In this document: positions 15,753-23,404 of the stretch, one piece after another
How positions within the stretch are numbered: position 1 is the stretch's first letter
Layout of the letters: every line of letters begins with the position of its first letter
DNA from: a virus
Strand: one strand, 5' to 3'
IMG/VR virus record: IMGVR_UViG_3300031566_000354
Span: 1 to 24,568 of that record
DNA length: 24,568 nucleotides
Notes under the pieces: model-generated
Databases searched by the model: none
Told to the model about the DNA's origin: nothing
The model's input: the letters and a program-made list of their open reading frames with translations, nothing else
Made by a program: the position numbers and the translations under genes

Positions 15753-17228
15753 TTAGAATAATAGTTCTTGCCCTCCCCGTGTTTGCGACTTCGCTTTTTT
15801 CAAGACATCATGTGTCATTGGTAATGTCAAGCGTTTTCCTTCGAGCATGTCTTCGACCGTCACAATCTGGACTCTGTCAAAATTCTGTCCAGCCATCAAT
15901 GGGTTTTGGTAGAACCCGGCTTCTTTGGCCTCTTGTGTCATCCCTCGGCTTGGTTGTTCAAGTGTTAATAAGATTCCGACTGCGGCCTGTTCACGTTCGA
16001 TTGTTCCGCGTAAATCTCTGACCATGCTGGGCTGTAAATGCCCGGACTTGACAGAGAGGATGACCTGCTTATACTCCTCTGCGGTTTCCTGGACAAAGGC
16101 AATGCCGTCAATGCCTTTGTCGCCGCCTTTCTTTTCGTTAATCACGGCGCGGTTATTTGTATAGGTTAAGACGGCCCACTTTTCAAACTCTTTTCTGACT
16201 CGATCATCCTGCTTGTGTGCTAAGGCTGTAGCGGCTTCAATGTCTTGTGGTACGCCATTCAGTTGAATTTCTGGCAACAATTCTTTGCCGAAACTTTCTT
16301 CTAATCGTTTCAACACGACGCTGATACTTTGATACGTGATGTCAATGCCTTTCCATCTTCGCTTGAGCCGTTCTGCGACATTTACTGTTGTACCGCACCC
16401 GCAGTATGTATCCAAAATTATATCGTCTTCATTACTGCTTGCTTTGATAATCTTTTCTAATAACGTTTCGGGCTTTTGTGTCGGATACCCTAAACGCTCT
16501 TTTGCCATTCCATTGATTGTAGGGATATACCAAACATCGGTAGGCATAGCAAATTCTTTGCTTCCTGTTTTACTTTGCTTCTCAATTAATGCTCCTTTAT
16601 ACCGCAAACGATTCTTACTTGCTTCTGACAAGGTTCTCGGCTCTAACACTTGATAAGCATTAAATGTGTATTGATCACTTTTTGTATAACATAAAATGAC
16701 ATCATGCTTTCTATTCCATCGCTTATCAGTTCTCACTCCCCAAGAATATGTCCATATTATCTCTGTAATAAAATCGCCACCATGTCCACAGAATATCGCA
16801 TCAAGGATGAGTTTCAAATAATGACTGCATGTCGGGTCACAATGCAAATAAAAGCTGCCGGTCGGTTTGAGTACGCGCCATATTTCCGCGATTCTGAGCG
16901 TCATACTGATAAGATAGGCCAAGAGACTACCTTTTCCGAGAACTTTTGACAACCCTTGCATCAGTTCAAGCGTCTGTTTGGTCAAGATTCCTCGGCTATT
17001 TGTCAAGATGTCGTCAAGCCCTTCTATCGCCATATTATCCCATGTCCAGGTATCAATGAACGCCTGCGCTTGCGCCAGATTTTCTTTGCCGATATTATTG
17101 TAAATTTGGTTATAGTTCCGCTTGCTGTTGAATGGCGGGTCAATATAACACAAATCTATCGTTTCGTCTCGGAAATACTTACGAAGAATATCTAAGTTAT
17201 CTCCGTAATACAATTCACGTTCATTCAT
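15753..17228 (-). CDS. DNA methyltransferase (beta-class N6-A/N4-C) fused to an Mrr-like nuclease domain
   Basis: 491 residues from ATG 17226-17228 (MNERELYYGDNLDILRKYF); a GTG at 17243 is an alternative. Motif IV CYIDPPFNSKRNY is at residues 27-39, a target recognition stretch follows, then YPTQKPETLLEKI near 248-260 and motif I DTYCGCGTT at 273-281. IV before I is the beta order. From about residue 345 a second domain has KGGDKGIDGIAFV and KQVILSVKSGHLQP, the D...(S/Q)xK pattern of the Mrr-cat restriction nuclease. This fusion is known in bacterial and phage genomes. It may modify phage DNA and cut unmodified DNA. It follows the last attC site directly, but no attC lies behind it, so it is either resident or the end of the array. 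Confidence 0.85.
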   Translation of the reverse strand: MNERELYYGDNLDILRKYFRDETIDLCYIDPPFNSKRNYNQIYNNIGKENLAQAQAFIDTWTWDNMAIEGLDDILTNSRGILTKQTLELMQGLSKVLGKGSLLAYLISMTLRIAEIWRVLKPTGSFYLHCDPTCSHYLKLILDAIFCGHGGDFITEIIWTYSWGVRTDKRWNRKHDVILCYTKSDQYTFNAYQVLEPRTLSEASKNRLRYKGALIEKQSKTGSKEFAMPTDVWYIPTINGMAKERLGYPTQKPETLLEKIIKASSNEDDIILDTYCGCGTTVNVAERLKRRWKGIDITYQSISVVLKRLEESFGKELLPEIQLNGVPQDIEAATALAHKQDDRVRKEFEKWAVLTYTNNRAVINEKKGGDKGIDGIAFVQETAEEYKQVILSVKSGHLQPSMVRDLRGTIEREQAAVGILLTLEQPSRGMTQEAKEAGFYQNPLMAGQNFDRVQIVTVEDMLEGKRLTLPMTHDVLKKAKSQTRGGQELLF

Positions 17229-17281
17229 ATTTCGCGTTCTCACTCACTGTGATATGCTGCGAATGCAACGTGCACAAAGAG

Positions 17282-17419
17282 CGCTAACGCCTGCATTCAC
17301 AAGCACATCCAGCGCCGTGACCGGAAGTACACAGCCTGAACCAGCACAATTTTTAATAGCGGGCACGTATGCTGAAACTACGCCGCGCTGGTTGTGTCTT
17401 GTGCAATGCTTTGTTAGCG
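17282..17419 (-). other. attC site 1 (138 bp)
   Basis: Minus strand starts CGCTAAC (17413-17419) and ends GTTAGCG (17282-17288), perfectly complementary. The arms GCATTGCACAAGACACAACC and GTGCTTGTGAATGC pair with mismatches; the central part forms a long variable loop. The stop TAA of the 87-residue gene lies in the first core. The 5' core of its unit (18897-18903) is also GTTAGCG. Confidence 0.8.
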
Positions 17420-17677
17420 CTTGCCTGTAGTACACTTTTTGTTGCACCATTCATCCAAAAAATCACGTAATTCAATCACATGATCTCGTGTTATCACTCC
17501 CCCGATAAATATTTTTAATTCATCATCAAAACGTTCAATCCCCATCCCCCAATCTTTCATATCACCCGTTTTACAATTTTCAGTAAAAGAATATTGCACA
17601 TCACCTAGCGGGGAAAGAATGCATCGTTTGATAGAACGAGTATCATTATTTCTTGCTATTTCAAGGTTTTTTATCAT
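17414..17677 (-). CDS. Hypothetical cassette protein, 87 residues
   Basis: Starts MIKNLEIARNNDTRSIKRC and contains YSFTENCKTGDMKDWGMGIERF and FIGGVITRDHVIELRDFLDEWC. The beta-then-helix layout and the final segment 'GGVIT..HVIELRDFLDEW' suggest a small alpha/beta protein. The ATG overlaps the TGA of the broken upstream gene (ATGA), so the two were translated together. Its TAA is in the first core of attC site 1, a common arrangement in integron cassettes. Function not recognised. Confidence 0.65.
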   Translation of the reverse strand: MIKNLEIARNNDTRSIKRCILSPLGDVQYSFTENCKTGDMKDWGMGIERFDDELKIFIGGVITRDHVIELRDFLDEWCNKKCTTGKR

Positions 17678-17925
17678 AAAATATCTCGCTTTATTATTGT
17701 CTTCCCAAATTGAGTTAACACAAACATATTTGGGATAGCTTCAAGTTTAATTAAATGTTTTTTTAATAATGAATCAACAGCCTGGTTTATGGCTGAACGA
17801 TCTGCATTAGCTATTCTTTTTATATCATCTTCTATCGCATCTAAAGAAACCACCCAGGGGTTATTGGTTTAGAATTCTTCATAAATACGTTGTAAAACGG
17901 CTCTTTCAACAATACTTAATTTCAT
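17674..17925 (-). pseudogene. Winged-helix-like gene interrupted by an in-frame TAA
   Basis: From ATG 17923-17925 (after AGGAGCAAAT) the frame reads MKLSIVERAVLQRIYEEF, then TAA (17869-17871), then TNNPWVVSLDAIEDDIKRI and on through SAINQAVDSLLKKHLIKLEA to IIKRDIL and TGA. The frame is otherwise intact over 83 residues. The helix pattern with 'LDAIEDDIKRIANADRSAINQAVDSLLKKHLI' spread over it looks like a small winged helix. One stop codon is the only fault, so it is either a recent pseudogene, a sequencing or assembly error, or a read-through case. It overlaps the next gene by ATGA. Confidence 0.65.
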
Positions 17926-17971
17926 ATTTGCTCCTGTCATTATTACCTGTCATATTTAATAAGTTGAGGAA

Positions 17972-17996
17972 GAGCGGATGACAGGAGAATCCGCTC
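17972..17996 (-). terminator. 8-bp hairpin between two cassette genes
   Basis: GAGCGGAT and ATCCGCTC pair perfectly around a 9-base loop in the 102-base gap between the 58-residue gene and the broken gene. Only TTCCTC follows, so termination would be weak. It has no attC cores. Confidence 0.35.
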
Positions 17997-18027
17997 GTTC
18001 GGTTGGCCGACCTATCCTCATGAGTTC

Positions 18028-18204
18028 TTATGATTTTTTCTTATTTTGCTTCTCTTCGGGTTCCTTCATATCAACTTTTTTAGTATCGATCGGCTCTCCT
18101 TTTAAAGTTGTAAGCTGTAATGGCAATTTCTTAGGTTTTTCATGTTTGTTGTTGACGATTCCCCATAGTTTTATGATAGCAGGGTCGGAATCAGATTTAT
18201 TCAT
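18028..18204 (-). CDS. Small charged cassette protein, 58 residues
   Basis: Begins MNKSDSDPAIIKLWGIVNN and ends with a Lys/Glu-rich tail (KEPEEKQNKKKS). GGAGG lies ten bases upstream, inside the end of the membrane protein gene, whose stop is two bases before this ATG. The tight spacing and strong ribosome binding site support a real gene, translated with the membrane protein. It looks partly disordered. No family recognised. Confidence 0.6.
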   Translation of the reverse strand: MNKSDSDPAIIKLWGIVNNKHEKPKKLPLQLTTLKGEPIDTKKVDMKEPEEKQNKKKS

Positions 18205-18206
18205 AT

Positions 18207-18779
18207 CTAATTTTCCTCCCCATTAGCAATTAAAGAGATGTATTCAAGGTCTTGATTAGCTGGAAAGTATAGTAACGGGATGGTTGGAGATAACTCTTTA
18301 TGTTCTTCTCCTATGACTAGATGTGCGTTTTCAATAAGCATTTCATTATTTATTGAGTTGAAATTTCGTATTAAACCAATGAATTCCTTCCCATCTTTAA
18401 ATCCTATTCTTTGCCATCCATTACTCATTTTTTCGGCAGCATCCAATGAATATATTCTATCGTGAGAAGATGGGGCTACTTTACGATTATGAAAGAAGAT
18501 AAAGGGCATCCATCCCTTATTTTTAGATTCTCCACTTATTGACCCAAGTGGGATGGCAATAAGTAATGGGATAAGCAGGCTTTCTTTTTGTAATATCTCC
18601 TGAGATTGATAGACAAAATTCGTGATAGCGTAGATAATCATGGCATAGATGACAGCTTCAAGTACATAAAACTGGTAGTCTTTCCTAATCATGTCAGTTT
18701 TAAACTCGACGATCCTCATACAAAAGAAACCTGGGATGAGGAAAATAATAAGCTGTATAACATCTGATGATATTTGCAT
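18207..18779 (-). CDS. Membrane protein with N-terminal helices (DUF6338-like)
   Basis: 190 residues from ATG 18777-18779, chosen because AGAGGTGA lies eight bases upstream; a longer open frame would begin in the previous unit. Begins MQISSDVIQLIIFLIPGFFC, then has further membrane segments near residues 37-53 (LEAVIYAMIIYAITNF) and 65-80 (SLLIPLLIAIPLG). Residues 85-190 are soluble, with WQRIGFKDGKEFIGLIRNF and a sheet-rich end. The opening 'IIFLIPGFFCMRIVEF' is like the DUF6338 family of bacterial membrane proteins; this is a recollection, not a search. It is the first gene of a 1.6-kb four-gene unit with its own promoter. Confidence 0.6.
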   Translation of the reverse strand: MQISSDVIQLIIFLIPGFFCMRIVEFKTDMIRKDYQFYVLEAVIYAMIIYAITNFVYQSQEILQKESLLIPLLIAIPLGSISGESKNKGWMPFIFFHNRKVAPSSHDRIYSLDAAEKMSNGWQRIGFKDGKEFIGLIRNFNSINNEMLIENAHLVIGEEHKELSPTIPLLYFPANQDLEYISLIANGEEN

Positions 18780-18826
18780 AATTTCACCTCTATTTATTTT
18801 AATTACAATAATTCCACATCTGTCAT

Positions 18827-18866
18827 AAAATAACCTATCATCTTTAAATTGCAAGAAATTTCTTGC
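18827..18866 (-). promoter_or_regulatory. Putative promoter with palindrome for the four-gene unit
   Basis: TTGCAA (18849-18854), a 16-base spacer and TATTTT (18827-18832) lie 48 bases before the membrane protein ATG. The -35 box overlaps a perfect 16-base palindrome GCAAGAAATTTCTTGC (18851-18866), a possible operator. A gene with a possible winged helix is in the same unit, so self-regulation is conceivable. Confidence 0.4.
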
Positions 18867-18896
18867 CAAAGTTACAACAAAACTTGACGGCAAGAG

Positions 18897-18903
18897 CGCT
18901 AAC
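18897..18903 (-). other. Isolated cassette core (GTTAGCG), attC partner missing
   Basis: The core and 15 following bases are identical to those at 19374-19395 (22 bp in all), and the core equals the inner core of attC site 1. It therefore marks the 5' end of the four-gene unit. No complementary first core or palindrome with cores is found in the 140 bases upstream. Confidence 0.6.
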
Positions 18904-18906
18904 AAA

Positions 18907-19116
18907 TTATCGTTTATCAGGATGCACCCACGTCCCTTGCTCATCAGGAATGCCGCCTACAATTGAATGAATTAATTCCGTTACGGGAATCCCCGTAACG
19001 GAAGAAAGTTCTTTGACAAACTCTATTGTTGTTTTTAGACGGCTGTAATCATTAAACTTTTTACCAACTGCTTTACACATTGCCGTTGCATTGACATATC
19101 CAGTATAGGTGATCGG
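18907..19116 (-). pseudogene. KilA-N domain remnant
   Basis: One frame reads ITYTGYVNATAMCKAVGKKF, then NDYSRLKTTIEFVKELSSVT, then GIPVTELIHSIVGGIPDEQG and TWVHPDKR followed by TAA. The order 'GYVNATAMCKA..KKFNDY ... LKTT.EF ... GGIP..QGTWVHP' is the KilA-N domain of phage anti-repressor and DNA-binding proteins. An in-frame TAG lies directly upstream (19117-19119) and there is no start codon, so the N-terminus is missing. The C-terminal part, which should continue after WVHP, is also missing. The remnant ends four bases before the isolated core at 18897-18903. Confidence 0.75.
18976..19003. repeat. Perfect 12-bp inverted repeat inside the KilA-N remnant
   Basis: TTCCGTTACGGG and CCCGTAACGGAA pair perfectly around a 4-base loop. 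It falls in the codons for SSVTGIPVTE. It lies where the missing attC of this unit would be expected but has no proper cores. Confidence 0.6.
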
Positions 19117-19174
19117 CTAACCATTATAATATCACATAACCACCTTGTTTTAAATATGTTAAGGTGATCGGCTA
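19107..19174. repeat. 13-bp direct repeat, 55 bp apart
   Basis: AGGTGATCGGCTA occurs at 19107-19119 and 19162-19174. The first copy contains the TAG that closes the KilA-N frame; the second follows the small RNA terminator. The AT-rich 42 bases between them include TATAAT on the minus strand. It may be the scar of an insertion or deletion. Confidence 0.5.
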
Positions 19175-19179
19175 CACGC

Positions 19180-19288
19180 AAAAAGCCCCGAAGAGGTGTT
19201 ATCGCCATAGATATGGTTTTGCGTTCGTCGCCGAGACGCAACTCTTCGGGGCTAAAATTATTTCATATTCCACATCGTGACGATAACG
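19180..19288 (-). ncRNA. Putative small structured RNA with promoter and terminator
   Basis: A promoter at 19294-19322 would start transcription near 19288. The transcript begins with GACG-TTAT-CGTC, then has an outer 12-bp stem AGCCCCGAAGAG / CTCTTCGGGGCT (19242-19253 with 19184-19195) that encloses two inner hairpins, TTGCGT/ACGCAA and CCATA/TATGG, and ends in five T. The outer stem plus T-run is an intrinsic terminator, the inner hairpins make a three-way junction. The about 109 bases encode no plausible protein. I do not recognise a known RNA family. Confidence 0.5.
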
Positions 19289-19303
19289 TCTCGAATATGA
19301 AAT
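19260..19303. repeat. 11-bp inverted repeat around the small RNA start
   Basis: ATTTCATATTC (19260-19270) and GAATATGAAAT (19293-19303) are perfect inverse copies with 22 bases between them. One copy overlaps the -10 box of the small RNA promoter, so the pair could be an operator or part of an RNA switch. Confidence 0.5.
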
Positions 19304-19322
19304 ACCTGTGATTTTACGTCAA
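19294..19322 (-). promoter_or_regulatory. Putative promoter of the small RNA
   Basis: TTGACG (19317-19322), a 17-base spacer and CATATT (19294-19299) on the minus strand, same layout as the other promoters in the window. No ribosome binding site or long frame follows; a terminator comes about 105 bases on. Confidence 0.5.
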
Positions 19323-19388
19323 GAAAAATCTGAGCGTGTGTATATAATTTCAACTGCTTGCATCAACCAACTGACTTGACGGCAAGAG

Positions 19389-19489
19389 CGCTAACGCCAA
19401 AATAACCGGCGGCACACGCGCTTGTAGACTGCTGATAATACCGACAAGCGCGGGGCGCGGGTGGCGTCAGGTTGATTTTTTTGTTATAT
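19389..19489 (-). other. attC site 2 (101 bp)
   Basis: Minus strand from ATATAAC (19483-19489) to GTTAGCG (19389-19395). Arms AAAATCAACC / GGTTATTTT and CCCGCGC / GCGCGTG pair, with one unpaired C in the first arm. The inner core matches the 5' core of its own unit (19736-19742). Confidence 0.8.
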
Positions 19490-19502
19490 GACGCCTTGGT
19501 CA

Positions 19503-19712
19503 TTATTCATTATCGTACATTTCTTGTGCCTCAGCATACCCACCCCAATTATCAACTCCGGCAGCATTTAGACAGTCCAAAAAGTCTGAATCTTCTTCAA
19601 CCCCTTTGATTTTTTCTAAGACAGCATCAAATTCGGGGTCCCATCCATCACGCGGAATAATGATTCCAATCTTATCTTCAATTGCGTTGATAAGTTGCTC
19701 TGTTAATTTCAT
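19503..19712 (-). CDS. Hypothetical cassette protein, 69 residues
   Basis: MKLTEQLINAIEDKIGIIIP followed by RDGWDPEFDAVLEKIKGVEE, then LDCLNAAGVDNWGGYAEAQE. Acidic, mostly helical. AAGGAGAAATTTC precedes the ATG, about 25 bases from the unit boundary, the usual layout of a cassette with one gene. The motif DNWGGYAEA and the size suggest a small protein of the kind often found in mobile cassettes, but no function is recognised. Confidence 0.7.
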   Translation of the reverse strand: MKLTEQLINAIEDKIGIIIPRDGWDPEFDAVLEKIKGVEEDSDFLDCLNAAGVDNWGGYAEAQEMYDNE

Positions 19713-19735
19713 GAAATTTCTCCTTGCCGAAAGGC

Positions 19736-19793
19736 ATATAACACCCTGTTAACCGGCGCGGCTGTTGGCGTCCGGTTGAACAGATTGTTATGA
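19736..19793 (-). other. attC site 3 (58 bp)
   Basis: Minus strand from TCATAAC (19787-19793) to GTTATAT (19736-19742). CTGTTCAACCGG pairs with CCGGTTAACAG except for one extra C, the extrahelical base typical of attC. The inner core is the reverse complement of its unit's 5' core GTTATGA (20154-20160). Confidence 0.85.
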
Positions 19794-19802
19794 TGTACGG
19801 TT

Positions 19803-20132
19803 TTATGCGATAACGCTAAGAGATACCGAAGGATTCCCAACCTTGACAAACTGCGACATAATGTCTTCTGGCGGCGACAACTCTTTGACAAGTTTCGTCC
19901 AATCAGTGATCTGTTTTGTCTGCGTATGCGCGTCCATGACTTCGGGCGGTACGTCAATTACTTTTGCGATTCCTTCGTAATTATATGTTTTTCGTCCGTT
20001 TGCGAAAGACGCTTTCACGTTGCCGACTTGCTGAGTTTTACCCAACGACAAAACTTCTTTTTTAATTTCAGCCTCAAGTTTTGAGATTTCGAGTTTTAAT
20101 TCTTCCCAACGTGCCATTTTTTCTGTTAACAT
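19803..20132 (-). CDS. Hypothetical coiled-coil cassette protein, 109 residues
   Basis: Begins MLTEKMARWEELKLEISKLE and has a coiled coil over residues 5-30, then GNVKASFANGRKTYNYEG near residues 37-54, then helices ending VSLSVIA. AAGGAGAG lies eight bases before the ATG. The motif 'V.A.F..GR..YNYEG' after a coiled coil is seen in small phage-borne proteins, so this unit may come from a phage gene. The function is unknown. Confidence 0.65.
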   Translation of the reverse strand: MLTEKMARWEELKLEISKLEAEIKKEVLSLGKTQQVGNVKASFANGRKTYNYEGIAKVIDVPPEVMDAHTQTKQITDWTKLVKELSPPEDIMSQFVKVGNPSVSLSVIA

Positions 20133-20153
20133 TATAACTCTCCTTGTTAGTAC

Positions 20154-20212
20154 TCATAACGATTAAGTTCTCTGGCGCGTCTTTTTGCGTCCAGAGCAAC
20201 GCCTTGTTATCC
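20154..20212 (-). other. attC site 4 (59 bp)
   Basis: Minus strand from GGATAAC (20206-20212) to GTTATGA (20154-20160). GTTGCTCTGG pairs with CCAGAGAAC with one unpaired G. The inner core equals the reverse complement of its unit's 5' core GTTATCC (20903-20909). The HTH gene reads into this site. Confidence 0.85.
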
Positions 20213-20420
20213 TTCCTTCCCGAACACCTTCAAGCTCTTTGTTCTGTTCACGCCTACTCAGGCGGTCGAAGAAGGAAATTTCTTTTACGACATATTCCGG
20301 CACATCACGTTTTCCAGATTCCCACATGTGCCAGGCTGGTTGTCTGACGCCTAAAAGCTGTGATATTTGGTCTTGAGTCAGGTTCCAACGTGCCCGAAAT
20401 TGTTTTAGTTGCTCGTTCAT
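20163..20420 (-). CDS. XRE-type HTH protein, candidate antitoxin
   Basis: 85 residues from ATG 20418-20420 (MNEQLKQFRARWNLTQDQIS); a TTG at 20432 is also possible. The helix-turn-helix is RWNLTQDQISQLLGVRQPAW with HMWESGKRDVP, typical of the Cro/CI family. GAGGCATAGG before the ATG lies in the end of the upstream gene, two bases after its stop, so the two genes are coupled. The frame runs through attC site 4, so the last about 22 residues are encoded by the recombination site. Gene order (effector first, HTH second) and the private promoter fit a HigBA/RES-Xre type toxin-antitoxin layout. Confidence 0.7.
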   Translation of the reverse strand: MNEQLKQFRARWNLTQDQISQLLGVRQPAWHMWESGKRDVPEYVVKEISFFDRLSRREQNKELEGVREGRITRRCSGRKKTRQRT

Positions 20421-20421
20421 C

Positions 20422-20760
20422 CTATGCCTCAAAAACTAATTCAGCGTCAACATGTTCTTCGGTCACGAAAAACTTAGCTTCGCCGTTTAAGTATTCCGGA
20501 TCATCATATTCGGGATCGTCTAAAGTTTCGCCATCTGCGTCAAAGGCATAAATGATAAAATCGCCGCCATTTTCGTATCCGAATTCTTTTGCATCCTCAA
20601 TGTCTGTAAAACCAAAAAGTCCACAAATATCTTGACCCTGAAAAGTTTCGTCTGCATTTGACCAGTTTAAATCAACTTGGTTGCCAGGAGCTAATTGAGG
20701 TCCACCATTCCATTCGATTAAACTTTGATTTGCTTTTTTTGTTGTATGATATAATTTCAT
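20422..20760 (-). CDS. Small acidic protein with ART-like N-terminus, candidate toxin
   Basis: 112 residues. Begins MKLYHTTKKANQSLIEWNGG, then has CGLFGFTDIEDAKEFGYENG and GDFIIYAFDADGE, and ends EEHVDAELVFEA. A start of the form LYHxT, an 'IxxGF'-like step and a later FIIYAFD strand recall small ADP-ribosyltransferase-fold domains, where the His and a late Glu act in catalysis. The match is weak and the protein is very acidic, so other roles are open. It is coupled with an HTH gene and has its own promoter 47 bases upstream. Confidence 0.55.
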   Translation of the reverse strand: MKLYHTTKKANQSLIEWNGGPQLAPGNQVDLNWSNADETFQGQDICGLFGFTDIEDAKEFGYENGGDFIIYAFDADGETLDDPEYDDPEYLNGEAKFFVTEEHVDAELVFEA

Positions 20761-20806
20761 GTTGCTTCTCCGCGTTGAGTTATTATCAATTACTTAGTAT
20801 AACCTT

Positions 20807-20834
20807 AATATATAACATATTTATAATTTGTCAA
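20807..20834 (-). promoter_or_regulatory. Promoter of the candidate toxin-antitoxin unit
   Basis: TTGACA (20829-20834), a 16-base spacer and TATATT (20807-20812) on the minus strand, within a very AT-rich 140-base leader. Cassettes usually lack promoters except for toxin-antitoxin units, which must be expressed at any place in an array. Confidence 0.6.
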
Positions 20835-20902
20835 GTAAATAACACAATTATTTTATAAAAATGTTATTTTTTTATTTCAAACGAGCAACCAACACGAAAG
20901 AA

Positions 20903-21011
20903 GGATAACGCCGCATTTCAGCCGCCAAAGACACGCGGCCACAACAGCCCGAATAACACCATAAAACTTTTCCCGCGTGGCTTTGGTCGGGCTGCAAATG
21001 CATTGTTATAA
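20903..21011 (-). other. attC site 5 (109 bp)
   Basis: Minus strand from TTATAAC (21005-21011) to GTTATCC (20903-20909). Arms GCATTTGCAGCC / GGCTGAAATGC (one unpaired G) and CCAAAGCCACGCGG / CCGCGTGTCTTTGG pair over more than 20 positions. The gene upstream ends with TAA in the first core. The inner core differs by one base from its unit's 5' core GTTATAC. Confidence 0.85.
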
Positions 21012-21239
21012 TGCTTGTTTCTTGAATTCTTTCCATAGACTTATCATTAAATCGGCAAGCTCTACTTTTTCTTGTCGTGACAACTCAGTCTCGTAGTCAT
21101 CTTCATCATAAATAACTCCGTCGTATCCTTCCCAAACGCTCAAATCTTTCGTTATTCCAATAATTCCATTATTGGCATGAATATCTTTCCCTGTTGAAAA
21201 ACATATTTTATTATGTTCTGGTATTATTGTTGCTGGCAT
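21006..21239 (-). CDS. Hypothetical cassette protein, 77 residues
   Basis: Start at ATG 21237-21239 (MPATIIPEHNKICFSTGKDI), chosen because GGAGGG lies seven bases upstream and 14 bases from the unit boundary; the longer frame begins in the attC site. Contains HANNGIIGITKDLSVWEGYDGVIYDEDDYETELSRQEKVE in pieces, then a helical end LADLMISLWKEFKKQAL. The acidic middle (YDEDDYE) followed by a helix is seen in many small cassette proteins of unknown role. TAA falls in attC site 5. Confidence 0.7.
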   Translation of the reverse strand: MPATIIPEHNKICFSTGKDIHANNGIIGITKDLSVWEGYDGVIYDEDDYETELSRQEKVELADLMISLWKEFKKQAL

Positions 21240-21249
21240 AATGCCCTCC

Positions 21250-21349
21250 GTATAACGCCGCGATAACCCGCCTTGAACCCCATGAAATGCAGCTTCTGTC
21301 ATGCAAATGCGCTGAGGGGTTCAAGGTCGGGTTTATCGTATTGTTAGCA
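21250..21349 (-). other. attC site 6 (100 bp)
   Basis: Minus strand from TGCTAAC (21343-21349) to GTTATAC (21250-21256). CGATAAACCCGACCTTGAAC and GTTCAAGGCGGGTTATCG pair fully except for two extra A in the first arm. The inner core equals the reverse complement of its unit's 5' core GTTAGCA (21601-21607). Confidence 0.88.
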
Positions 21350-21580
21350 GGTACGTGTTTTGAAAAAAGTTTTTTGTTTTTGTATGTCTGCTATCTGTCC
21401 TTTTGATAACAATATGAATTCTATCTTTCTGCCAGCTTCATAACATTTGCCACATGCACTGCATTTATAATACCGCAAGAACTCACCGTCAAAGTGCTCT
21501 TCTTCTCCACATATACATGTAATCGACAGACAGACATCTGACTCTTTCCAATTAATTGAAACATTAGGTTTATCGGACAT
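21344..21580 (-). CDS. Small zinc-ribbon-like cassette protein, 78 residues
   Basis: Start at ATG 21578-21580 (MSDKPNVSINWKESDVCLSI), the first ATG after the upstream attC site; the longer frame would be encoded by the attC. TCICGEEEHFDGEFLRYYKC and SACGKCYEAGRK give a CxC ... CxxCxxC set, which fits a zinc ribbon. The C-terminal part is a strand and a helix. The TAA stop is in the first core of attC site 6. The ribosome binding site is weak. The role is unknown. Confidence 0.65.
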   Translation of the reverse strand: MSDKPNVSINWKESDVCLSITCICGEEEHFDGEFLRYYKCSACGKCYEAGRKIEFILLSKGQIADIQKQKTFFKTRTC

Positions 21581-21600
21581 AATATTTATTCTGCAAGTAG

Positions 21601-21703
21601 TGCTAACGGCACAAATAACGCGCACAACACGCGCCTGTACCAAGTTTAAAACTACGACAAATCTTCGCGCGCGGGTTGTGTCGCGTTGATTTGTTTGTTA
21701 TGC
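21601..21703 (-). other. attC site 7 (103 bp)
   Basis: Minus strand from GCATAAC (21697-21703) to GTTAGCA (21601-21607). ACAAATCAACGCGACACAAC and GTTGTGCGCGTTATTTGT pair with one extra C and one mismatch step, extended by CCGCGC / GCGCG. The inner core differs by one base from the 5' core of its unit (GTTATAC at 21932-21938). Confidence 0.88.
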
Positions 21704-21909
21704 GGGATTGGTGTCAACTTTTCAGTTCCTTTATTCGGATGACAAACCGAATCACACCCATGCCAATCAAGATTTTTCTTAACAGAAACACCAACCGTTT
21801 GAATAAAATTACAAACCATCTCTGCAAGTAAAAAATCAGGCATGTCAACTTCATTTTCAACGCAATATGTGTTGATTAACTGCTCCAACTCTTTTTTAAA
21901 TTCATCCAT
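21652..21909 (-). CDS. First cassette protein, 85 residues, phage-type small protein
   Basis: Starts MDEFKKELEQLINTYCVENE, then DMPDFLLAEMVCNFIQTVGV, then a Cys/His stretch DWHGCDSVCHPN. The opening 'F..EL..LIN....EN..D.PDF.LA' is like a small protein family I know from phage genomes, although I cannot name it. AAAGGAGAAATT precedes the ATG, 24 bases after the unit boundary. The frame continues through attC site 7, so about the last 15 residues come from the site. Being first, it should be the best expressed unit. Confidence 0.7.
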   Translation of the reverse strand: MDEFKKELEQLINTYCVENEVDMPDFLLAEMVCNFIQTVGVSVKKNLDWHGCDSVCHPNKGTEKLTPIPHNKQINATQPAREDLS

Positions 21910-21931
21910 AATTTCTCCTTTTCATAGTGAC

Positions 21932-21938
21932 GTATAAC
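21932..21938 (-). other. Lone core at the head of the array (possible attI-like junction)
   Basis: GTTATAC on the minus strand marks the 5' boundary of the first unit. No palindrome lies upstream of it, as expected for an insertion point of the attI kind. AT-rich sequence and the promoter at 21968-21996 precede it. Confidence 0.5.
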
Positions 21939-21967
21939 AAATTATTAACTTGACAAATACTGTAATA

Positions 21968-21996
21968 AATATAGAGCACATATGTGGAAAAGTCAA
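21968..21996 (-). promoter_or_regulatory. Promoter at the head of the cassette array
   Basis: TTGACT (21991-21996), a 17-base spacer and TATATT (21968-21973) on the minus strand. The spacer contains the palindrome CACATATGTG (21977-21986), a possible operator. Transcription would start about 23 bases before the first core and read all cassettes in their coding direction, as the Pc promoter does in an integron. The 140-base gap between this unit and terL holds nothing else I can support. Confidence 0.65.
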
Positions 21997-22078
21997 GTAT
22001 AAAAGGTAAAAATATAAAAATAATTAAAGCGGAAATGTAGAAATGCGTATAGACGGGGACAATCACGGCTTTGAACAA

Positions 22079-23404
22079 TTAAATAAACATCGACTTTCCA
22101 GCACTTTGAATTCTGGGGAGTTCCCCAAATTTCCCCTCACAATAGGTGTCTAACTCCACCAATGCATACCGAGTCCCATCAATTAGATGATCGTTTTGTG
22201 GCTTTTTAGGCTCTTGAGTCCCCGGTTTTGACACGTAACTTTCAATCTCTTCGATGGTTTTTGGACAGTTGTCACACACAAAGAGAGATGGCCTCCCGTT
22301 CTCATGGACCTTTAAGCGCCGCCTGAAAATCTCGATGCCAAGTTGGACGCTTTTGTTCGCCGGAGTACACGGGATCCCATGCGCTTCCAACTCAAATCGC
22401 TCTTGAAAGGCATGGTCCGTATGTGTATCAATAATTTTGTGGGAAAACGCATATCCGAACTCCTCTTCAATGGATATAATTGCCTCTGCCATGTCCTGAA
22501 TTGAACATTCATCATTCTTCCACTCCGCCAGGATATAGGCATCTTCATCGTGATCGATGCCGACCCATGAGCAGGCTTTCCATCGCCCGAAATCAACTCC
22601 GCGAATAATATACTGAATCCGTCCAAACAACTCAATATCAAACGGGATAACATGCACATCTTCATTGAAGGTTTTGTATATTCGTCCTTCTAAAATTCCC
22701 CATTCGCCATAGACTCTGTAGGGGAGTTCTTCTTCGCCATAGAAGGCAACCTGCATATCTCGTGCCTTCGGATCTAAATAGATATTGTCATAGAGTGAAA
22801 TAGTTCGAGAAAAAACATTATCATTCAGAAACAAATCCTTATATGACCAGTGCGTTTTTCCTAGCAGGGGAGTGAAGCTCAATAATATTTGGCCGCCGGT
22901 CATTGTTGTTCTTGCAACGCAGGAGGTAAAGACCATCTTGCTTTTCAGCTGCTCATCTATCCAGACAAGATCACATTGAGCCGCCTCAAACTTACGAAAT
23001 CCGGCCTCTTCGCTTTTAAAAACAACACGACCGCCATTTTTGTGTGGTTGCGAGTATGCAATGCCTTTGCCTTTTGCCGCCCATATCGGCTCACAAATTT
23101 CATCTGGATGAAAATATTCGTCCAGCTTGTCGAAACATATCTTTGTCATTTCAAAATTTGGAGCGACCGCCCACACCAAACATCCTGGATGATTCCGCAC
23201 GTAATCTGCAACGTACGCGCCGGCTGTTGTTGACTTGCCTGATTGATTGCCGCCGACAAGCATTTTGATTTTATTCGGGGCGTCCCACCATTCTTGGACC
23301 TTCTGGCAGGAGGGAGTGAATGGAGGAAGGATAATGGGTGTGTCTTGTGAGGTTATATGTTGATGTATGACTTTTTGTTGATCATAGCGACCTAAGAGGA
23401 GCAT
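22079..23404 (-). CDS. terL: Terminase large subunit
   Basis: 441 residues. Walker A GGNQSGKST at 51-59, Walker B LVWIDE at 146-151, the coupling motif LLSFTPLLGKTHW near 174-186. The nuclease half has GVDFG at 269-273, DTHTDHAFQERF near 326-337 and a late Asp in NDHLIDGTRYALVE. All catalytic parts of an ATP-driven DNA packaging motor with RNase H-fold nuclease are present. The ATG directly follows the TAA of the 45-residue gene. In most phages the portal gene follows; here 4.7 kb of cassettes and a methyltransferase unit lie between. Confidence 0.93.
   Translation of the reverse strand: MLLLGRYDQQKVIHQHITSQDTPIILPPFTPSCQKVQEWWDAPNKIKMLVGGNQSGKSTTAGAYVADYVRNHPGCLVWAVAPNFEMTKICFDKLDEYFHPDEICEPIWAAKGKGIAYSQPHKNGGRVVFKSEEAGFRKFEAAQCDLVWIDEQLKSKMVFTSCVARTTMTGGQILLSFTPLLGKTHWSYKDLFLNDNVFSRTISLYDNIYLDPKARDMQVAFYGEEELPYRVYGEWGILEGRIYKTFNEDVHVIPFDIELFGRIQYIIRGVDFGRWKACSWVGIDHDEDAYILAEWKNDECSIQDMAEAIISIEEEFGYAFSHKIIDTHTDHAFQERFELEAHGIPCTPANKSVQLGIEIFRRRLKVHENGRPSLFVCDNCPKTIEEIESYVSKPGTQEPKKPQNDHLIDGTRYALVELDTYCEGKFGELPRIQSAGKSMFI

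Follow-up and report, generated by a model that had tools for sequence, protein, structure and literature searches.

A CALIN of eight cassettes in a phage genome

The phage genome fragment analysed here (hereafter the window, an incomplete contig of 24,568 bases constituting one IMG/VR virus record) harbors, judged from its sequence, a genuine integron-type CALIN of eight cassettes between the phage terminase and methyltransferase genes (a CALIN being a cluster of attC sites that lacks an integron integrase, with at least two attC sites close together as the criterion). We consider it likely that phage DNA and CALIN meet on the left at the head of this array, and that the lone core located there, GTTATAC (21932-21938, minus strand), came in with cassette 1 as its 5' core, the left boundary of the cassette lying at the expected cleavage point (G 21938 | T 21937).

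Structural genes and array alike are encoded on the minus strand. The array is flanked on the left by the terminase large subunit (22079-23404) and on the right by an N6/N4 DNA methyltransferase with an Mrr-like C-terminus (15753-17231), and the window also encodes a fusion of portal and minor head protein (15293-13359), a capsid protein (11265-10162) and tail genes. About 4.7 kb of short, co-oriented ORFs separate the terminase from the methyltransferase, and no integron integrase was found among the ORFs between terminase and portal. The contig end (24567-24443), upstream of the terminase genes, encodes the C-terminus of a tyrosine recombinase, a 41-aa fragment (LGHSDTRTTEKYIHL) whose best matches are Xer-type and phage integrases and which is too short to classify; owing to this gene the phage may be temperate, and an integrase may lie elsewhere on the phage, as the contig is incomplete. 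The description of the site as being without integrase, made in the first-pass annotation, thus stands for the surroundings of the array, but, given that the contig ends inside a tyrosine recombinase gene, it is true only of the known portion.

Seven attC sites, all in one orientation and in a direction agreeing with that of the genes, are present within 4.4 kb, and each has at its start an inverted core of 7 bases, the last three being AAC (R''), and at its end a core that begins with GTTA (R'). All given on the minus strand, they are attC1 (21601-21703; R'' GCATAAC, R' GTTAGCA; fold z = -4.0, scanner score 13.5), attC2 (21250-21349; TGCTAAC, GTTATAC; z = -4.7, score 15.5), attC3 (20903-21011; TTATAAC, GTTATCC; z = -4.9, score 13), attC4 (20154-20212; GGATAAC, GTTATGA; z = -2.9), attC5 (19736-19793; TCATAAC, GTTATAT; z = -5.1, score 10.5), attC6 (19389-19489; ATATAAC, GTTAGCG; z = -3.2) and the last one, attC8 (17282-17419; CGCTAAC, GTTAGCG; z = -3.7, score 13), which forms the right boundary of the array. 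They fold on the plus (bottom) strand, with z-scores from -2.9 to -5.1, and none of 200 shuffles folded as well, except for four shuffles in the case of attC4. The strand and direction of an attC site can be told from its extrahelical bases, and arm comparison places two extra bases in the L'' arm of every site (C or G, or A in attC2, followed by A), the second of which belongs to a two-base bulge in attC3. That attC sites require extrahelical bases is stated in PMC12901181. It is the clustering of seven sites with integron-type inverted cores, bottom-strand hairpins with R and L boxes and extrahelical bases, with no integron integrase nearby, that leads us to designate the array as a CALIN.

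The purpose-written attC scanner recovers all three sites of Tetrasphaera phage TJE1 and yields ca. two matches scoring at least 9 in six simulated contigs. Since it missed the array of Pseudoalteromonas phage PH101 (first 50 kb of the genome scanned) and gave weak matches in Polaribacter phage P12002L, it is no general detector; these three phages are among the published examples of phages carrying CALINs (Qi et al. 2023, PMC9892861). A further candidate attC at 20869-20797, overlying the promoter-like site of cassette 4, was rejected as an AT-rich chance palindrome.

Cassette boundaries and lone cores

The upstream core of an inserted cassette carries TTRRRY from the cassette's own attC, and should therefore match the inverse complement of its own R'' and not the R' in place. 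Cassette 7 lacks a terminal attC and was omitted from the test. For the other seven cassettes, comparison of the upstream core with the inverse complement of the own R'' gives 47 matching positions out of 49, as against 34 of 49 for the R' in place, and only 2 of 5040 permutations do as well (P = 0.0004). At the head itself, GTTATAC is followed by AAGGAG and an ATG at 21909 (minus strand), and the surrounding DNA (21932-22034) contains no attC-like hairpin (z = -0.74, compared with -2.9 to -5.1 for the attC sites), which bears out the earlier claim of a single core without a palindrome behind the promoter. The motif occurs six times on this strand of the window and, taken alone, would be weak evidence for a boundary; it gains weight from sitting where cassette 1 should begin and from matching the inverse complement of the attC1 R'' (GCATAAC) at six of seven positions. 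As GTTATAC fits several other attC cores equally, the own-core test does not prove the head by itself.

A second lone core, GTTAGCG (18897-18903, minus strand), lies inside the array, where it follows a KilA-N fragment and lacks a preceding attC (interval fold z = -0.82). Together with the last attC, it shows that the array did not form by simple one-by-one insertion. It also bears on the origin of the head, as an older first cassette or attC could have been deleted there, leaving its R' core and some of the DNA before it, the promoter among it. In this array attC loss or bypass has occurred, as is shown by the lone core at 18903 beside a KilA-N gene that looks truncated, and cassette 4 possesses its own promoter of the same style; however, no L' arm or half-palindrome is recognisable upstream of GTTATAC and the intergenic gap behind the terminase is short (140 bp), and we regard such a residue as unlikely. 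A lone core at the left end is in any case what every cassette insertion leaves, whether an attI or a secondary (attG) site was the target or an attC has been lost, and any CALIN necessarily starts with one, whatever its insertion target.

A promoter-like sequence at the head

Upstream of the core by 30-58 bp, a sigma-70-like promoter sequence is present on the minus strand just as the first-pass annotation described it, reading into the first unit: TTGACT (21996-21991) and TATATT (21973-21968) are separated by a 17-nt spacer, within which the palindrome CACATATGTG is located, and the site scores 10/12 against the consensus (21968-21996 overall). A transcription start near 21961 is a reasonable prediction. 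Among 100-bp windows taken from this contig, 1.8-2.0% have a site of at least 10/12 on one strand; for simulated sequences of the same length and the local composition (29% GC) the figure is 3.9%. With such a chance level (2-4% per 100 bp) the score is suggestive and not strong. ACTTGAC and TATATT are common to this site, to the one before the terminase operon (24442-24414) and to that of cassette 4 (20834-20807), i.e., the head site appears closer to two other promoter-like sites of the window than to any named Pc. Given this shared style and the chance level of the score, a phage-type promoter seems more likely than an imported Pc.

ACTTGAC is present in 12 copies in the whole window (2.9 expected; 0 of 100 shuffles reach 12), e.g., at 21948, 21992, 20830, 24438, 19374 and 18882, several of them close to a promoter or a cassette core. 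At the array head, two copies are arranged around the promoter so that they point towards each other, the inverted one (21948-21954, plus strand; GTCAAGT on the minus strand) being situated between promoter and core as a possible operator arm.

Could the promoter match and the GTTATAC motif both be random occurrences in the AT-rich 140-bp gap, with cassette 1 a resident phage gene and the array starting only at attC1? The expected frequency of the promoter score and the six copies of the motif would be in keeping with this, as would the 85-aa protein of cassette 1, which matches PHROG families of unknown function. Yet the core and the start codon are 29 bp apart, an arrangement also seen in the other cassettes, the core agrees with the attC1 R'' as described above, and its inclusion makes the own-core rule hold throughout the array. 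We hold a chance origin to be very unlikely.

Contents of the cassettes

All cassettes lie on the minus strand. Cassette 1 (21607-21937) contains the 85-aa ORF (21909-21652), which runs into attC1, cassette 2 (21256-21606) a 78-aa ORF (21580-21344), cassette 3 (20909-21255) a 77-aa ORF (21239-21006) and cassette 5 (19742-20159) a 109-aa ORF (20132-19803). Cassette 4 (20160-20908) combines its promoter-like site with an acidic 112-aa ORF (20760-20422) of no known family and a helix-turn-helix (HTH) protein (20420-20163) whose matches to HTH families, among them MqsA-type antitoxins and Aca2/YdiL, stay below threshold. Just upstream of this strong promoter-like site there is an inverted repeat (AATAACA...TGTTATT), and the layout of the cassette (20908-20160) resembles an anti-CRISPR/aca or a toxin-antitoxin operon.

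The 69-aa ORF (19712-19503) of cassette 6 (19395-19741) matches the T7 gp5.9 RecBCD-inhibitor family with its last 33 residues (Pfam 49.3 bits, cut-off 24.5; PHROG 1.9e-13), an unexpected cargo for an integron. As the same gp5.9-like motif occurs in Bacillus phage proteins, some of them annotated otherwise, inhibition of RecBCD by this protein is only suggested. Cassette 7 (18903-19394) ends without attC and holds the KilA-N fragment (19080-18907) and a possible small RNA with terminator (19287-19178): a promoter-like TTGACG-17-CATATT is followed by ca. 110 nt whose end forms a perfect terminator hairpin (AGCCCCGAAGAG...CTCTTCGGGGCTTTTT; fold z = -2.97), so that 19287-19172 may represent a small-RNA cassette. 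Rfam searches of the window, this candidate included, gave no family at the gathering threshold; a sub-threshold match to int-alpA RNA is seen at 17946-18022 on the minus strand (24.6 bits, gathering 35.8), within the bounds of cassette 8 (17288-18902), which encodes a 193-aa membrane-like ORF (18788-18207) and two further ORFs (17853-17674 and 17677-17414). An identical 22-base leader (GTTAGCGCTCTTGCCGTCAAGT) is common to two cassettes (19395-19374 and 18903-18882), and a third core, at 17288, shares GTTAGCGCTCTT with these. Searches with the cassette proteins gave no match in plasmids and, in phages, only the 40-aa gp5.9-like motif. Overall, it can be weakly inferred that the cassettes may carry counter-defence genes.

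Searches for relatives and for an empty site

Scans with the terminase, portal and capsid proteins recovered one other contig, of the same virus (99.95% identical), which starts at window position 16080 and does not extend as far as the array. For empty-site relatives, IMG/VR was scanned with a terminase profile and with the terminase, portal, capsid and methyltransferase proteins singly, and only the same virus or unrelated phages were returned: the closest other terminases have ca. 30% identity, with no portal or capsid relatives at their loci, and methyltransferase relatives (50-59% identity) occur in unrelated viral contexts. Joining the flanks predicts an empty site of AATAATTTG directly followed by TTAGCGCTCTTTG; this 21-mer is absent from IMG/VR, which speaks neither for nor against the boundary, and an exact search for the 23-mer of the head found no other occurrence there. 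Comparison of the array head with annotated phage and plasmid DNA gave no match beyond chance, and the head resembles no known attI. The repeated cassette leader (GTTAGCGCTCTTGCCGT), used to look for source genomes, produced 14 matches, all attributable to chance and none beside an attC, and no host integron of origin was found in the searches made.

Comparison with known arrays

Phage cassette arrays are already known, and the present one adds a well-formed example with seven attC sites (TJE1 has three). Like the published phage CALINs (PMC9892861), it combines co-oriented attC sites, small ORFs, the lack of an integrase and methyltransferase genes in or next to the array; its position between terminase and methyltransferase/portal is unlike theirs. 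In the same publication, attC sites from virulent phages are reported to work with IntI1, and a CALIN headed by an attI is described in the late region of the Shewanella prophage M16-3. The own-core rule is kept at the start of both phage CALINs with a located head, i.e., TJE1 (GTTGGAT against ATCCAAC) and M16-3 (GTTACAA against TTGTAAC), and neither has a promoter of comparable score, the TJE1 head being preceded by a terminator (PMC9892861) where ours is preceded by a promoter-like sequence. With M16-3 our array shares the location among late genes, a lone core at the head and a head core close to the inverse of the R'' of the first attC. However, our sequence analysis of M16-3 showed its head to be a copy of the attI of its own integron and the prophage carries intI, whereas here neither attI homology nor an intI was found. 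Another phage array, beside recombination-type genes, is present on an IMG/VR contig of 67.9 kb (L098), in which two cassettes (L098:2840-2700 and 2090-1960, minus strand) seem to contain, in place of ORFs, a structured RNA that is possibly tRNA-like or a closed helix; neither ARAGORN nor Rfam gave a match in them.

These comparisons are pertinent to the idea of a dedicated landing platform, in which the phage would keep a promoter and an attI-like site behind which host integrases repeatedly insert cassettes. Promoter-like sequence and core are indeed in the right order, spacing and strand, much as in a class 1 integron (intI-Pc-attI-cassettes), where promoter, core and attC-bearing cassettes follow in order, and M16-3 offers a precedent with its CALIN behind a Shewanella-type attI among late genes (PMC9892861). 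Unlike in a class 1 integron, there is no intI beside the array and no L box, DR1/DR2 or similarity to Pc is established. The head resembles annotated phage or plasmid DNA no more than by chance, the heads of TJE1 and M16-3 are without a comparable promoter, a lone core is also found inside the array, and a single genome covers the head, which thus offers no cassette diversity to see. We consider such a platform improbable. What holds of the integron platform or landing site first suggested for this spot is that a real cassette array without a neighbouring integrase starts here and that a promoter-like sequence reads into it; an attI-like nature of the core and a Pc identity of the promoter would go beyond this.

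Insertion of cassettes into non-classical attG or secondary sites (Loot et al. 2024, as cited in PMC12444791 and PMC11023631) and off-target integron insertion sites (PMC10127599) have been described, and such a reaction would leave exactly what is seen here, a lone G|TT core on the left and an attC on the right; for this phage we infer the reaction, no empty target being known.

A proposed route of acquisition

For the preferred reading, i.e., a left junction between phage DNA and a CALIN, we propose that an integron integrase supplied in trans by an integron-bearing host, during infection or lysogeny, inserted cassettes downstream of the terminase gene, into a site of GTT type. The G of GTTATAC would then derive from the phage target and TTATAC from cassette 1, and the target could have been an attI, a secondary (attG) site or the residue of an older attC. 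A functional IntI can act on CALINs in trans and mobilise them (PMC12444791), and precise removal of cassettes by the host integrase would be expected as well. The first cassettes would be expressed from the phage-type promoter already present in the intergenic gap and by read-through from the terminase, which we propose because no terminator-like site is predicted on the minus strand between the terminase end (22079) and 21939; cassette 4 would bring its own promoter. The site works like an integron head.

To the few described phage CALINs this adds an array from an uncultivated phage with boundaries that can be read to the base, and with the own-core rule, cassette boundaries can be tested simply from sequence, whatever the array. 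The contents of the cassettes hint at counter-defence. It is doubtful that the phage keeps a fixed promoter-plus-core acceptor in its packaging/late region, used in trans by host integron integrases, and so samples counter-defence cassettes without an integrase of its own. If this were true, the acceptor would let the phage sample the cassette pool of its hosts (e.g., the RecBCD-inhibitor-like protein, the HTH-linked small acidic protein and the methyltransferase), and a head that could serve repeatedly as an acceptor site would make phages users of the bacterial cassette pool as well as its vectors.
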